From: Deltaproteobacteria bacterium
GTDB taxonomy: Bacteria; Myxococcota_A; UBA796; GCA-2862545
DNA: 64,000 nucleotides
Assembly (NCBI GenBank): GCA_006226595.1
Contig: SBGP01000095.1
Span: forward strand, 248,001 to 312,000
Direction of reading: 5' to 3'
Shown here: piece by piece, positions 8,803-27,047 of the stretch
Numbering within the stretch: position 1 is the first letter of the stretch
How the letters are laid out: each line of letters opens with the position of its first letter
Translations under genes and position numbers: made by a program
The notes under the pieces: generated by a model
The model's input: the letters and a program-made list of their open reading frames with translations, nothing else
What the model was told of the DNA's origin: nothing
The model's database searches: none

Positions 8803-10536
8803 ATGATCTCCCTGCTCCTCTCCGCGGCCCTCGCGGGCGGCCTGCCCTCCCTCGACCAGCCCCTGAAGACCGGCAACACGGCCAGCGCCGACACCGCCGT
8901 CGTCATCGGCGTCGAGGACTACGCCTTCGCTCCGGACGTGCCCTACGCCGAGCGGGACGCCTCCGCGTTCTACGACCTGCTCGTGTATACGGTGGGCGTG
9001 CCCGCCTCCCGCATTCGCCTGTTCGACAAGGGCGCGTCCAAGGAGCAGATCGTCGATGCCGTGCGCACGGCGGGAAGCGACGTCGGCGCTGGCGGCACGG
9101 TGTGGATCTACTTCGCGGGCCACGGTGCCGCGGACCCGTCCACCGGCGGGCGCCTGCTGCTCGGCGACGACGTGAAGCAGGATCCGACGGCCTTCGCCGC
9201 CCGCGGGGTGGGCGTGGACGAGCTCAAGGCGCTGGCCGAGGTCAAGGGCGGCGCGGTGAACCTCGTCGTCGACGCCTGCTACTCGGGCCTGGGACGCGGC
9301 GGAGACGAGCTCATCGCCGGCAAGCGCTTCCTGGTACCCGCTTATGCCCAGGCCCCGAAGCCGGGCGTGTTCGAGTGGAACGCCGCCAGCGGGGACGAAC
9401 TCTCGGGCCCGCTGCACCCCACGCGCCACGGCGCCTTCACCTACCTCGCGGTGGGCGCCCTGCGCGGCTGGGCCGACGGGCAGCTCGACGGGCAGCGCGA
9501 CGGCAAGGTCACCGCCGAGGAAGCGCACCTCTACGTCAAGGATGCGCTCAAGACGCTGCAGATCAACGACCAGACCCCTGAGATGGCGGTGGACGGCGCC
9601 AAGTCGCGCGTGCTCGTGAAGGCCGAGGGCCTGGAGCCGGCGCCCACCCTCGACCCCCGCATGGCGGAAGGCGGCGCTCCCGACAGCGGCCCGGCCCCCT
9701 ACTCCAAGCCCAGCGGGCCGATCGAGGCCGCCGACCGGCCCCTGGTCGAGTCCCTCGTTCGCGGCGCGGTGGCCAAGTGTGTGGCCGAACACGGCGGCGG
9801 CGACCCGGTCTTCGACCGCTGGTTCGTACGCTTCAAGATCAAGCCCGGAGGCTCGCTCAAGGGCTACCTGGCGAGCAACGCGGTGTACACCGAGTCCCCG
9901 GCCATGTTCCCCACCCACACCTGCGTCCGGGAGGAGATCAAGTCCTGGAGCTGGGCGGCGACGAGCCTGGTGACCTTCAAGACCTCGATCACCCTGGAGT
10001 CCTCCGCGCCTGCGGCCGCCCCCACGCCCGCCCCGGCTCCCGCGACCTCACCGGCTCCCGCGCCCGCCTCGGCCACCAGCACCACCAGCGTGAGCAGCGG
10101 GACCACCGGCGGCACCACCACCGTCGACATGCAGGTGCCCGGTATGGGCGTGCACATGGAGGTCACCGAGAGCGGCGACGGCATCACCGTCGATCAGCTC
10201 GTGGACCCGAACTACGCCGCGCCCACCACCACCGCGAACGCAGGCCACGGCACCCCGGCGGTGGGCCCGAGCTCGGTGAAGCTGGTGCTCCGCTCGCAGG
10301 ACGGCGAGTGGATCGACCTCAAGGTCGATGGCAAGGTCGTCGGCGAGCTCCGCAACGACGACGAGCTGGTGATCACCATCTCGCCCGGTGTGCACACCCT
10401 CGAGTTCGTCGACTTCATGGGCAAGGAGCCGTATGCCCGAGGCCAGCTCTACACCCACGACCAGGCCGAGATCGTCTTCGGCGTGAAGGAGACGGCCGTC
10501 GAGGCCTACGGCGCCGCGGACTGGCGTGCCCAGTAG
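8803..10536 (+). CDS. secreted caspase-like (peptidase C14) protein
   Basis: A 577-residue protein with a short signal peptide (ISLLLSAALAGG). The caspase p20 core runs from about 30 to 200: VVIGVEDY, catalytic His107 in YFAGHG and catalytic Cys159 in DACYSG, so the Cys-His dyad is intact. Residues about 310-400 (ESLVRGAVAKCVAEHGGG...) resemble the AgmX/TonB-like C-terminal domain of Myxococcota envelope proteins. A Pro/Ala/Ser linker and a PEGA-like beta domain (WIDLKVDGKVVGELR) follow. It is last in an operon with two lipoproteins. A periplasmic protease with Arg/Lys specificity of the metacaspase/orthocaspase type is the likeliest reading; the substrate is unknown. Confidence 0.9.
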   Translation: MISLLLSAALAGGLPSLDQPLKTGNTASADTAVVIGVEDYAFAPDVPYAERDASAFYDLLVYTVGVPASRIRLFDKGASKEQIVDAVRTAGSDVGAGGTVWIYFAGHGAADPSTGGRLLLGDDVKQDPTAFAARGVGVDELKALAEVKGGAVNLVVDACYSGLGRGGDELIAGKRFLVPAYAQAPKPGVFEWNAASGDELSGPLHPTRHGAFTYLAVGALRGWADGQLDGQRDGKVTAEEAHLYVKDALKTLQINDQTPEMAVDGAKSRVLVKAEGLEPAPTLDPRMAEGGAPDSGPAPYSKPSGPIEAADRPLVESLVRGAVAKCVAEHGGGDPVFDRWFVRFKIKPGGSLKGYLASNAVYTESPAMFPTHTCVREEIKSWSWAATSLVTFKTSITLESSAPAAAPTPAPAPATSPAPAPASATSTTSVSSGTTGGTTTVDMQVPGMGVHMEVTESGDGITVDQLVDPNYAAPTTTANAGHGTPAVGPSSVKLVLRSQDGEWIDLKVDGKVVGELRNDDELVITISPGVHTLEFVDFMGKEPYARGQLYTHDQAEIVFGVKETAVEAYGAADWRAQ

Positions 10537-21109: not shown

Positions 21110-22192
21110 CTACAGGTTGCCGATGCGCTGGACGAGCTCGGGCGCGTCGACGAACGGGTTGCGGTTGCCCTGGAGGCTCTCGATCACGTCGTTGCGATCG
21201 CGCTCGCGCTGGTCCACCGGGTCCTGCGCGTGCCAGGCGCGCAGGGTCGCCTCCTCGTCCGCGCCGATGTCGCGCTCATAGCGAACCGAGAAGTAGAAGT
21301 GCGCCCGAGCGATGTCTCCGCGGCGCTCCGGCCGCACCTCGAACACCGAGGTCCCGCTCGTGTCCGTGCCTCGCTCGGATCCGCCCACGGCCCAGGGGCA
21401 TGCGCTCGCTTCGCACACCGTGTCCCGGAACTCGAGGCTGGCGCGCTGGGTGTTGGCGTCCGCGTTCGCGGGGAAGATGTGGTGCAGGTCGCCGCGCATG
21501 GGCTCGGTGTCCGCGCCCTCGCTCTGCGGCCAGCTGTGCTCCGTGTTGAACGTGCCGCCGGGAGTGCGCGTGCCGTCCGAGCGCACCTTGATCCCGGTGT
21601 AGATACCCTCGATCTCGTCGTTGAAGACCTCGAAGCCGATCCCGCCGTCGACGCCGTACATCTCGTTGCGCGCCGGCGTGTATCCGAGCCCGACGTGCGT
21701 CTCGCTCGTGTAGGTCAGCAGCGCATCCCGGAGCGCATCGTCGACGAGCCCGGCCCAGGGATCGGTATCGGTGTCCGTGTCGGCATCGGTGTCGGCGTCC
21801 GCATCGGTATCCGCGTCCGCATCGGTGTCCGCGTCCGCATCGGTGTCCGCGTCCGCATCGGTGTCGGCGTCGGCATCGGTGTCCGCGTCCGTATCGGTGT
21901 CCGCATCCGCATCGGTGTCCGCATCCGCATCGGTGTCCGCGTCCGCATCGGTGTCCGCATCCGCATCCGTGTCCGCATCCGCATCGGTGTCCGCGTCCGC
22001 ATCGGTGTCCGCGTCCGTATCGGTGTCCGCGTCCGCATCGGTGTCCGCGTCTGCGTCCGTGTCCGCGTCCGTATCGGTGTCCGTGTCCGCGTCTGCGTCG
22101 GTATCCGCGTCCGCCTCGGCGGTGTCGACGACGGTGTCCTCGGGAGACGGCGAGCAGCCGAGGAGCAGGAGGAGGAGGAGAGCGGAGCGCAT
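21110..22192 (-). CDS. lipoprotein endonuclease I with long Asp/Ala/Thr tract
   Basis: A 360-residue lipoprotein ([12 protein letters not shown], Cys13). Residues 28-145 are almost pure alternating D-A and D-T. The catalytic domain fills the C-terminal 200 residues and has the endonuclease I/EndA-like His-Me finger: [11 protein letters not shown], then [18 protein letters not shown] with the His and Asn expected at the active site. [11 protein letters not shown] and [13 protein letters not shown] follow. It likely degrades extracellular DNA while tethered to the cell surface; the acidic tract may act as a spacer or bind cations. The tract is coded by a minisatellite and can change length. Confidence 0.92.
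21761..22114 (-). repeat. minisatellite coding a poly(Asp-Ala/Asp-Thr) tract
   Basis: About 350 bp of near-perfect 6, 12 and 18-bp repeats (core GTCCGCGTCCGCATCG on the plus strand), all in frame, encode D-A-D-A-D-T units of the nuclease. Because the unit is a multiple of 3, gain or loss of copies changes tract length without shifting frame. Confidence 0.9.
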
Positions 22193-23675: not shown

Positions 23676-24566
23676 CTAGATCGCGATGCCCTCGAAGGCG
23701 AGCACCTGTGCGAGCAGCGCCTCCATCTCGACACGGGCGCGACCGGTGCCCTCCGCGAGGCCGCGATGCAGTGCTTCGTCTTCCGAGCCCTCGACCACGC
23801 AGCGTCGGCTGTACGTCTCGAAGTCCCCAAGGGCGACGAGCAGTCGAGCCAGGTGATTCGGGCATTCGCACAGGAGATCGGGCCGAAGGTTGAGAATGCG
23901 ATCGAGCTGCTCCCGCGAGTAGCGGGGCGACGCGGCGATCCCACCGGTGCGTGTCTCGCGCACCGCGAGGTCGAAGGCCTGGACGAGCTCGTGGGCCTGG
24001 AGGGGCCCGGCCACCAGATGAAGCTCGGGGATCGCTTCGAGTCGGCGGCGCTGACTGCGCGACAGCAGCTGGAAGGTGGCGACGATCACCACGCGGTGAG
24101 CGCGCGCGAAGTCTTCGAGCACGGACACGGCGTCTGGCCGTAGCCACGCCAGCTCGACAAGGAGGAGCTCGGCGCCGGCCTGGCCCAGATCCGCGAGCGA
24201 CTCACTCGATCCGACCAGTGACCAGCGGGCCGAGGCCTCGGCCACCGCCCTACCCGCGGGATGACAGGCCGCAAAGCGGCGCATCCCGCTCCGAGGAGAC
24301 GGCAGCGGCTCGGGAGACGCGACCCCGCGATAGCGCTGGAGCGCCTCGAGATCGAGCTTCGCGAGATCCGACACGCGCGCTCCGTCGTGCACCAGCTGAG
24401 CGATCACCCTCAGGCGCTCGACGTCGACCCAGGCGTACACCCGGCGTCCGCGATCGTCCCTGGCCGGCTCGACGACGCCGTACCGACGCTCCCACGTACG
24501 CAAGGTCTCGGTGGGAACCCCCGTGGCGTGGGACACCGAACCAATCGACCACCGCTCTTCGCTCAT
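23676..24566 (-). CDS. MerR-family regulator, WERRYG type, with a conserved Cys-rich C-terminal domain
   Basis: A 296-residue protein. The ATG at 24566 has GGAGG at 5 nt and starts with SEERWSIGSVSH; the upstream ATG at 24596 lacks a ribosome site. The MerR winged helix is at about 5-70 with TLRTWERRYGVVEPARDDRGRRVY, as in CarA/CarH/LitR-type and MlrA-type proteins. A Rossmann-like segment (about 100-190, AELLLVELAWLRPDAVSVLED) replaces the cobalamin domain: no D-x-H-x-x-G B12 motif is present. The last 70 residues have CECPNHLARLLVALGDFETYS, a domain I recall as common in MerR-like proteins but cannot name. It is divergent from the Roadblock/PYP-like operon and shares its promoter region, so it is the likely regulator of it. 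Confidence 0.85.
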   Translation of the reverse strand: MSEERWSIGSVSHATGVPTETLRTWERRYGVVEPARDDRGRRVYAWVDVERLRVIAQLVHDGARVSDLAKLDLEALQRYRGVASPEPLPSPRSGMRRFAACHPAGRAVAEASARWSLVGSSESLADLGQAGAELLLVELAWLRPDAVSVLEDFARAHRVVIVATFQLLSRSQRRRLEAIPELHLVAGPLQAHELVQAFDLAVRETRTGGIAASPRYSREQLDRILNLRPDLLCECPNHLARLLVALGDFETYSRRCVVEGSEDEALHRGLAEGTGRARVEMEALLAQVLAFEGIAI

Positions 24567-24601
24567 CCTGCCTCCATCGCGACACCGCGACACCATAACC
24601 C

Positions 24602-24634
24602 GTTCAAATCCTGTTCATGGACAGTTCGTGACAG
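24602..24634 (-). promoter_or_regulatory. left array: three 11-bp TGAAC repeats facing the MerR gene
   Basis: GTTC occurs at 24602, 24613 and 24624, exactly 11 bp apart, so the minus strand reads (A)TGAAC or CGAAC in three units: TTTGAAC, CATGAAC and CACGAAC. The units lie 36-68 bp upstream of the MerR ATG. Direct repeats of 11 bp are the operator form known for CarH/LitR-type MerR proteins, which fits autoregulation. Confidence 0.65.
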
Positions 24635-24700
24635 CGCCGAACAGTAGTTGACCAGCTTGCTTGGAGAATTTGAACAATAATTGAACATCAACTGAACAGG
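24635..24700 (+). promoter_or_regulatory. right array: 11-bp TGAACA repeats facing the Roadblock/PYP-like operon
   Basis: Three strong units end in TGAACA at 24671-24676, 24682-24687 and 24693-24698. Weaker units lie in the same 11-bp phase further left: GAACA at 24639 and GACCA at 24650; the unit at 24661 does not match. The last unit abuts the GGAGG ribosome site of the gene at 24708, so binding there would also hinder translation or early transcription. Orientation is opposite to the left array. Confidence 0.65.
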
Positions 24701-24707
24701 AGGCTCT

Positions 24708-25067
24708 ATGCAACACGCCCTCGAATCGCTTCGCCACGCCTGCCCACAGGTGGTCGCTGCCGCCGTCGTCGGACTCGACGGCGAGCTGCACGCGGTGACC
24801 GCCGATCAGGACCTCGACGGCGTCGTCGGGCCGACCTACACCGCCCTCGACACGGTCGCGCAGCGCGCAGTCCAGGAGCTCGGCCGAGGCCAGCTCACGT
24901 TCTGCCTGCTCGAGGGAGCGTTCGGACGCATCGTCGTCCAGGACACCGGGGACGGGCGCGCCCTGGTGGTCGTGAGTGACGAAGGTGCCCGTCTCGGGCT
25001 GCTCCTCGACGACGTCCGCGCTGCCGCCAAGGCCATCGCAGCGGCTCCCGAGGTGGCCCATGCCTAG
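24708..25067 (+). CDS. Roadblock/LC7-domain protein
   Basis: A 119-residue protein with AGGAGG 4 nt before the ATG. One Roadblock/LC7 fold: helix HALESLRHACPQ, strand AAAVVGLDGELHAV, helix TALDTVAQRAVQELG, then paired strands LTFCLLEGAFGRIVVQD, ALVVVSDEG, and the final helix LLLDDVRAAAKAI. Such proteins form dimers that control small GTPases (MglB for MglA) or act as scaffolds. No Ras-like GTPase gene is visible in the window. The next gene starts inside its 3' end. Confidence 0.85.
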   Translation: MQHALESLRHACPQVVAAAVVGLDGELHAVTADQDLDGVVGPTYTALDTVAQRAVQELGRGQLTFCLLEGAFGRIVVQDTGDGRALVVVSDEGARLGLLLDDVRAAAKAIAAAPEVAHA

Positions 25068-26346
25068 CGTGCTCACCATGGGCCTCGGCCTCGTCGCCGT
25101 GGCGTTGACCGGCTGCTCCGCGGCCCTCGGTACGCTGTGGCAGCGCGCCGAGCGCAACCGTCGCATGCTCGCCAGCGACGTCGGGCGCCTGTCCTCGGAT
25201 CTCGAAGCCCTCTCGATCCAGATCGCCAGTCTCAACGAGCAGTCCTCCCGACTCCTGGACCAGCGCAGCGACCTGCAGGATGCCCTGCGCGCGGCTGAGG
25301 AGCGCATCGCCGCAGCCAACGCGACCTCGATTCGGGTCGAGCAGGAGCGGGAGGCGGACCGCCGGCGCATGCGCGATCTCGGCATCGCCCACGCCAACCT
25401 CCAGAAGGGATTCGCGTCCATGGAAGAGGCCCACAGTCAGGCCCAAGAGGATCTGGCTGGCGCGGAGGTCGCGCTTGAACAGGCGATGAACAGGGCGAAG
25501 GAGCACGGCGCGGTGCTCGCCTCACTCGGGGTCGAGGTCGGTCCGCGGACCGTCGACCCGCTGGAGCTCGACCGCCGCGCCCGCAGCCGCGAGGCCGTGC
25601 ACGAGCTGCTCGTCGACTGTGGGGGCACCGCCGCCGCGCTCGTGAGCACGGAAGGCCTGCCCTACGTGGGGAGTGGACAGGATGCCGGCGTCGACCGCCT
25701 GTCCGTCGTCGGCGGCTGGTTCATGGACACGATCGGCGCCTGGGAAGCCGCGCTGGACGCGCCAGCGACGCACTTCTCGCTGCTCGACCGACGCCTGTGT
25801 GCCCACTATGCGCGTCTGCCCGGGAGGCGCGGGCTGCTCGGCGTCGAGAACCTCGGCGACGCCCCGCGCTTCGCGATGAACCACGCGATGATCCGGCTCG
25901 TGGACCGACCGGGCGCGCCGACGGGCAAGCCGGCATCCCTGCCGACCTCGCTGGACCTCGACCACGCGCTCGACGAGCGGATGAGCGCGAGGCTCACGGA
26001 GTGGTCCAAACGCCGCGGTGCCCTCTCGGTCACCGTGGTCGACGAGACCGATCAGGTGCACGCCGTCAGTGCCAGCGGACGCTCCGGCACCGCCGGCAAC
26101 CTCGTGCACCGCCTGCGTCCCCTGTTCCATCGCGTCGCCCTGCACGGGCGCGCCCCCGACGACCTCGTGTGGGTCGCGCGTGCCGCGGACGGCACCTGCG
26201 TCGTCGCCCGACTCGTCGAGCCCGAGACCGATGGCGCCGTGGTGGTCGTCGTCAGTCGCAGCCTCCCGTCCGAGGAGGCCATCGACGAGCTGTGCGCCAC
26301 CGTCCGCTGGACGATGGCCCGTCCCGAACCTCGCGAAGCTTCCTAG
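25060..26346 (+). CDS. membrane-anchored coiled-coil protein with two degenerate Roadblock-like domains
   Basis: A 428-residue protein starting at ATG 25060, 8 bp inside the preceding gene. A single N-terminal hydrophobic segment (LGLVAVALTGCSAALGTLW) has both a lipobox-like LTGC and a strongly positive flank (QRAERNRR); the flank favours a cytoplasmic C-terminus. Residues about 40-150 form a coiled coil. Two alpha/beta modules follow, at about 185-305 and 325-425. Each starts with a helix, has a strand like TAAALVSTEGLPYVG or SVTVVDETDQVHAVS, and ends in VVVVVSRSLPSEEAIDEL-like strand and helix. This is the Roadblock pattern, decayed. It may hold the small Roadblock protein and the PYP-like protein at the membrane. 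Confidence 0.7.
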   Translation: MPSVLTMGLGLVAVALTGCSAALGTLWQRAERNRRMLASDVGRLSSDLEALSIQIASLNEQSSRLLDQRSDLQDALRAAEERIAAANATSIRVEQEREADRRRMRDLGIAHANLQKGFASMEEAHSQAQEDLAGAEVALEQAMNRAKEHGAVLASLGVEVGPRTVDPLELDRRARSREAVHELLVDCGGTAAALVSTEGLPYVGSGQDAGVDRLSVVGGWFMDTIGAWEAALDAPATHFSLLDRRLCAHYARLPGRRGLLGVENLGDAPRFAMNHAMIRLVDRPGAPTGKPASLPTSLDLDHALDERMSARLTEWSKRRGALSVTVVDETDQVHAVSASGRSGTAGNLVHRLRPLFHRVALHGRAPDDLVWVARAADGTCVVARLVEPETDGAVVVVVSRSLPSEEAIDELCATVRWTMARPEPREAS

Positions 26347-26354
26347 GAGTTCCC

Positions 26355-27047
26355 ATGTCTGCGCATCCCGATACGCTGCCTTCACTCGAGCTCCCCCACC
26401 TCCGTGAGCTGCTGGACGAAGCCGAGACCGAGCGCACGCGCCTCAATCGGCGGATCCGACGCATCCGCAACCTGATCAAGGCCGTCGAGAACGGGGACGA
26501 GATGCCCGATCTCGCCGAGCTGTTCGGCGACCTTCGACCATCCCCGCAGAGCCCACCGCCACCGCGGCTGGTGCTGCCCGCTCACACCGGGCCGCTGGGA
26601 CCGGCCACGATCCTCGGAGAGGGCCTGCCTCCCGGAGTCCCGAGCCCCGTGGCTCCGCCGCCGCCGGCGGGCGAGCTGAGGATGCCGAGTGTCGACGTCG
26701 GGCGCCTGGGTCGGATGACGCCCGAAGCGCTCGATGCCCTGCCCTTCGGCGTGGTTACCCTGGACAGCACCGGTCGGGTCATCGGCTACAACGACACGGA
26801 GTCCCGCCTGGCCGGGCTGCCCCGCGAAGCCGTGCTGGGTCGCAACTTCTTCGGGGACGTGGCCCCGTGCGCGGCGGTGCGCGAGTTCGAGGGTCGCTTC
26901 CGAGACTTCGCCGAGGGCCGCTCCCGGCTGAGCCTCGAGACCTTCGAGTTCGTGTTCAACTTCAAGCGTGGCGCACAGCGCGTGGTGATCATGATCTCGC
27001 CGGCGCGGCTGCGCGGGCGGTTCCACGTGTCGATGATTCGCCGCTAG
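26355..27047 (+). CDS. coiled-coil plus PAS protein closely resembling photoactive yellow protein
   Basis: A 230-residue protein with AGGAG upstream of the ATG. Residues 15-50 are a coiled coil (LLDEAETERTRLNRRIRR), then a Pro-rich linker, then a PAS domain from about 125 to 230. The PAS domain aligns to photoactive yellow protein (PYP) without gaps from LPFGVVTLD to NFFGDVAPC. Tyr145, Glu149 and Cys172 fall on PYP Tyr42, Glu46 and the p-coumarate-bearing Cys69. Thr50 is Ala153 and Arg52 is Leu155. The surrounding EFEGRF and the C-terminal strand are also PYP-like. Whether a chromophore is bound is unknown; PYP-type PAS domains without proven photochemistry also occur. It is last in the MerR-controlled operon. 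Confidence 0.82.
   Translation: MSAHPDTLPSLELPHLRELLDEAETERTRLNRRIRRIRNLIKAVENGDEMPDLAELFGDLRPSPQSPPPPRLVLPAHTGPLGPATILGEGLPPGVPSPVAPPPPAGELRMPSVDVGRLGRMTPEALDALPFGVVTLDSTGRVIGYNDTESRLAGLPREAVLGRNFFGDVAPCAAVREFEGRFRDFAEGRSRLSLETFEFVFNFKRGAQRVVIMISPARLRGRFHVSMIRR

Follow-up and report, generated by a model that had tools for sequence, protein, structure and literature searches.

The closest described relatives of the arrangement reported here are found among the CarH and LitR regulators. CarH operators of Thermus thermophilus, Bacillus megaterium, and myxobacteria are known from footprints to consist of tandem 11-bp direct repeats, nnnnTnnACAn, in which three perfect units and additional imperfect ones precede a light-regulated operon, and cases with divergent promoters are also on record (PMC9304148). 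Among the LitR proteins, PmlR2 is independent of B12, and a short LOV protein encoded adjacent to it, once activated by light, keeps it from binding DNA (PMC9758184). The class III LitR of Burkholderia, described for Burkholderia multivorans (J Bacteriol 2018, as cited in PMC9758184 and PMC6739363), is likewise B12-less and, as summarized in those two papers, shows a light-dependent change of absorption.

In the window (the whole 64-kb stretch of DNA that was analyzed), two arrays of 11-bp units lie between a MerR-family gene and a divergently transcribed operon. An earlier note, made from the letters alone, had placed GTTC at 24602, 24613, and 24624, GAAC at 24639, 24672, 24683, and 24694, and GACC at 24650, and the sequence confirms every one of these positions. 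The right array (24638..24698, plus strand) keeps one register of six places at 11 bp, with CGAACA at 24638, TGACCA at 24649, a blank at 24660 (the place at 24661, CTTGGA, does not fit), and TGAACA at 24671, 24682, and 24693; in CarH terms these are dr CGAACA, dr TGACCA, a blank, and three perfect DRs. Its last unit reaches the ribosome-binding site of the first operon gene, as the note had said, overlapping the AGGAGG at 24698..24703 (plus strand) that precedes the ATG at 24708. In the left array (24601..24628, minus strand) there are three 11-bp units, TGAACG (24601-24606), TGAACA (24612-24617), and CGAACT (24623-24628), which on the minus strand read CGAACT, TGAACA, TGAACG, i.e., one DR and two drs; they lie 35-62 bp ahead of the MerR start (24566). 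The left array, with one perfect and two imperfect units, is clearly weaker than the right one. Both have the form by which CarH-type operators are recognized, namely at least three tandem 11-bp TnnACA units or a mixture of DR and dr. The likeness to CarH operators (PMC9304148) extends to the tandem direct repeats, to TnnACA, and to the three perfect and additional imperfect units before an operon, whose control by light is established there and putative here. The differences are that here two separate arrays run in opposite directions, that the target is an operon of photoactive yellow protein (PYP) and roadblock genes rather than carotenoid genes, and that the adjacent regulator is without B12 motifs. 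We consider it probable that these arrays are CarH/LitR-type operators of the adjacent MerR, which would be an autoregulated repressor controlling the PYP-roadblock operon.

The repeats could in principle reflect chance or a structural periodicity without any regulatory role, and by itself the left array is only modestly unusual (p 0.036 for the left triple when the upstream 120 bp were shuffled by dinucleotides); for the right triple the same shuffles gave p about 0.0007. A scan of the 64-kb window for three successive GAAC or GTTC at an even step (8-39) gave just three runs, two of which are the arrays. Pattern searches of the 7.23-Mb genome found TGAACN6TGAACN6TGAAC once, with 0 occurrences in the reversed control; when the triple was allowed up to three mismatches, this locus was again the sole match. 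The pair TGAACAN5TGAACA with at most one mismatch is present seven times in the genome, four of them here, one beside another CarH-like MerR gene, and two elsewhere. The search for further TGAACA arrays that the earlier note had proposed as a check thus shows that the repeats are not scattered at random, the triple being found only here. Exact TGAACA-N5-TGAACA pairs number only three in the whole genome, and the third, at 25476-25492, falls inside the coiled-coil gene, ~790 bp further downstream than the array, where it may either serve as an auxiliary operator or be a coincidence of the coding sequence.

We then compared the spacing of TnnACA units in 44 upstream regions, taken from full-length relatives of the MerR gene, six homologous PYP operons in the same class, and the window. 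Same-strand TnnACA pairs were found 17 times at 11 bp, spread over 15 regions (partly non-independent, as L077/L078 and L081/L082 are close pairs), against at most 3 at each other spacing up to 40 and a mean of 0.5 in the random-piece control. This peak across the family, together with the uniqueness of the triple in the genome, led us to reject chance periodicity, which we regard as extremely improbable; the two tandem arrays are real and non-chance. The unit is spelled TGAACA among the window's relatives, TAAACA in Burkholderiales, and TAGACA/TGGACA in Saccharospirillum, the lineage-dependent variation expected of co-evolving operators. In the close MerR relatives L124 and L127, TGAACA pairs spaced by 11 bp precede the MerR gene itself. 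The earlier proposal of a CarH/LitR-type operator is thereby supported, given that TGAACA is an instance of TnnACA, that the divergent MerR has a CarH-like DNA-binding domain, and that the 11-bp spacing is family-wide.

On the operon side, L079 is the one among the six homologous PYP operons that has no array, and the other five each have a significant 11-bp triple (p 0.0007 to 0.0087); in the homologous operons of G004, G005, and G021 no more than about 90 bp separates the 11-bp arrays from the roadblock start. That arrays are a general trait of all PYP operons was rejected, as no clear array was seen at L209, L211, L213, L214, or L215, five more distant PYP loci with a roadblock gene nearby. 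At L210 (6838-6854), TGTACATACTATGTACA lies between two divergent PYP genes and is an 11-bp TnnACA pair as well as a near palindrome.

The adjacent MerR-family regulator (296 aa; 23676..24566, minus strand; a longer start at 24596 is possible) combines a CarH-like DNA-binding domain (E 6e-11 against the CarH model and 2.3e-8 against the CarH structure 5c8d) with a C-terminus of the pattern CECPNHL...C...H. Of the two features of class I LitR/CarH (B12) proteins, it thus has the CarH-type DNA-binding domain and lacks the B12-binding domains, as it gave no B12 Pfam domain match and carries neither of the B12-binding motifs, W...EH and [E/D]xHxxG. As a positive control, three CarH-like paralogues in the same genome carry both motifs, and one or both occur in each of the CarH-like proteins that were examined from related genomes. 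The adjacent MerR was accordingly rejected as a CarH of the B12 type.

The same paralogues provide the main rival to the adjacent MerR as binder, since an unlinked B12-type CarH might act on the arrays, by itself or jointly with the adjacent MerR, with photolysis of adenosylcobalamin as the trigger. One of them (G000:C5) has TGAACA-N5-TGAATA, a nearly identical unit, near its own start (L093 around 9420-9435; G000:C5:45418-45434), and L132 and L137 have comparable sites before CarH-like genes. In addition, G020 and G021 have the operon, and G021 the array, but no full-length MerR relative was found in either; another regulator must serve where the operon and array occur without such a MerR, and both genomes have CarH-like MerRs. 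For the window, however, the divergent MerR is the parsimonious binder, as one array faces its gene and its nearest relatives have TGAACA pairs before their own genes, and we hold sole or shared control by a B12-type paralogue to be quite unlikely.

By its sequence, the adjacent MerR falls among the B12-less regulators that resemble class III LitR. The pattern CECPNHL...Y...C...H is common to it and 38 relatives, with C, E, C, P, H, Y, C, and H identical in 39 of 39, and a profile search gave a weak alignment of the middle part of the C-terminus to receiver-like domains. A full-length homologue in Burkholderia anthina (CECPRHL; 29% over 98%) lies in a cluster with genes for folE (GTP cyclohydrolase), an SDR, an FAD-oxidoreductase, and a photolyase, which resembles a light-induced cluster of Pseudomonas (PMC9758184); judging by its genus and this cluster, the B. 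anthina gene is presumably a class III LitR orthologue. The window MerR thus has what characterizes class III LitR, i.e., a CarH-like DNA-binding domain, no B12 domain, and full-length likeness to Burkholderia LitR-like proteins. Because of the missing B12 motifs, the C-terminal pattern, the Burkholderia homologue, and the description of class III LitR in the papers, we call the MerR class III LitR-like, a term that denotes resemblance in sequence. Compared with class III LitR as it is summarized in those papers, it shares the CarH-like DNA-binding domain and the absence of a B12 domain and differs in gene neighborhood, and its own light response is putative.

The genes around its relatives bear on the signal. 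In the tree, L124, L125, and L002 are nearest to the MerR by path, its own branch being long and in no well-supported group. The relative in L124 (5980-8960) adjoins a bacteriorhodopsin-like gene and a beta-carotene 15,15'-dioxygenase gene, and that in L002 (5974-7817) adjoins a bacteriorhodopsin-like gene; further neighbors of MerR relatives are peroxidase, FMN reductase, and mutase genes. In L129 (3979-10053), a MerR of another branch of the CECPNHL family lies beside methylmalonyl-CoA mutase and MeaB genes, and L131 (3356-8455) has a close relative of the L129 MerR in a similar gene layout. As relatives occur beside genes unrelated to light (e.g., methylmalonyl-CoA mutase), light is not the sole plausible signal. 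A redox or metal signal received through the C-terminal Cys/His residues would suit the peroxidase, FMN reductase, and mutase neighbors and the invariance of C233, C235, H238, Y252, C256, and H267 in 39 homologues. Against this, two of the nearest relatives adjoin rhodopsin genes, the Burkholderia homologue is in a photolyase cluster, the target here is a PYP operon, and the absorption of class III LitR is reported, in the summary given in PMC9758184, to change on illumination; a redox or metal signal therefore seems to us rather unlikely.

Each array faces one of the two divergent genes, as the earlier note had stated, with the MerR gene on the left and the operon on the right; what it had left out is that this is a roadblock-PYP photoreceptor operon. 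The first gene encodes a roadblock/LC7 protein of 119 aa (24708..25067, plus strand; Pfam PF03259, E 5.5e-6), the second a coiled-coil protein of 428 aa (25060..26346, plus strand) that overlaps the roadblock stop, and the third a PYP homologue of 230 aa (26355..27047, plus strand) with its PYP domain at residues 117-230. This gene order is kept in four related genomes (G004, G005, G020, and G021), and in more distant genomes the roadblock and PYP genes are close together. Proximity of this MerR to a PYP gene, by comparison, was seen only in this genome among the 377 searched in the phylum. Elsewhere in the window, the N-terminal half of an ORF at 21110-22192 contains an extended run of Asp-Ala-Asp-Thr repeats.

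The PYP homologue matches TIGR02373 with E 4.8e-24, its score of 84.8 being below the curated cut-off of 143.05, and PDB 1mzu with E 1.3e-18. In the alignment, its Y145, E149, and C172 correspond to Tyr42, Glu46, and the chromophore-bearing Cys69 of PYP, so that it has the residues expected of the sequence family despite the score below the TIGR02373 cut-off. Compared with the structures 1mzu (PPR) and 1nwz, it shares the PYP fold region with these three equivalents, whereas Thr50 and Arg52 are not kept, an N-terminal charged helix and linker are added, and the gene shares its operon with roadblock and coiled-coil genes. We looked beside the PYP gene for a chromophore pathway dedicated to it, in the form of a tyrosine ammonia-lyase and a PYP-type CoA ligase, the enzymes of p-coumaric acid supply, and found none. 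No TIGR02372 match exceeded the cut-off, and no tyrosine ammonia-lyase was recognized; the aromatic lyase that was inspected, one of a tandem pair, has an SH signature, which we take to be histidine-lyase-like. In L083 (9347-10620) and L084 (9691-10293), PYP is fused to an N-terminal MerR/HTH_17-type DNA-binding domain, in L083 in the form of two adjacent genes.

From these comparisons we infer which protein binds, that it represses and does not activate, and that light is the signal. Each MerR DNA-binding domain would read one 11-bp unit (TnnACA) on a single face of the DNA. On the right array the protein would obstruct the promoter and the start region of the roadblock/coiled-coil/PYP operon; on the left one it would dampen expression of its own gene. 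As in LitR/CarH proteins, the C-terminal domain, or a partner that relays the signal, would respond to light or photo-oxidative stress, whereupon the protein would leave the operators and the photoreceptor operon would be induced. No sigma-70 match above threshold overlaps the right array, which ends on the ribosome-binding site, and the geometry of repression is hence one that we infer. The absence of a strong promoter for the array to block would also suit a MerR that is an activator and switches the operon on from the right array, as classical MerR proteins do, and the family includes relatives in other gene contexts. Classical MerR activators, however, bind a palindrome between -35 and -10, not tandem 11-bp repeats. 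The array here extends to the ribosome-binding site, and the characterized proteins with this type of operator are repressors (PMC9304148, PMC9758184), which makes activation decidedly improbable.

For a B12-less repressor of this kind, PmlR2 is the nearest worked-out parallel, as it too is a B12-independent LitR-type regulator beside a separate blue-light sensor of PAS fold (PmSB-LOV), and its TnTACA half-sites are like the unit in the window (PMC9758184). It differs in belonging to class II, in its TGTACA-N12-TGTACA operator with an 18-bp step, and in using LOV rather than PYP; moreover, contact between the two proteins was shown there and would be putative here. By this parallel, light-activated PYP or a PYP-roadblock complex might contact the B12-less MerR and release the 11-bp arrays, so that PYP would control its own operon. 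The fusions of MerR-type helix-turn-helix domains to PYP in L083 and L084 indicate that such a pairing can occur, and we nevertheless rate this photoswitch as unlikely.

To our knowledge, most PYPs have no known output partner, and in the open-access literature we found no paper that connects PYP with roadblock proteins or with a regulator of the MerR/CarH type. The locus suggests a light-controlled switch in which neither part is used in the textbook way. If the repressor reading is true, it would be a compact circuit in which a B12-independent repressor of a light-responsive family controls a PYP operon through CarH-type operators. The 11-bp operator code, seen as TnnACA pairs 11 bp apart before the regulator's own gene in several lineages, would then extend from B12-dependent CarH to B12-less class III LitR-like proteins. 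If, in addition, PYP does act on the MerR, a PYP would gain an identifiable output partner, as the short LOV protein has in PmlR2.
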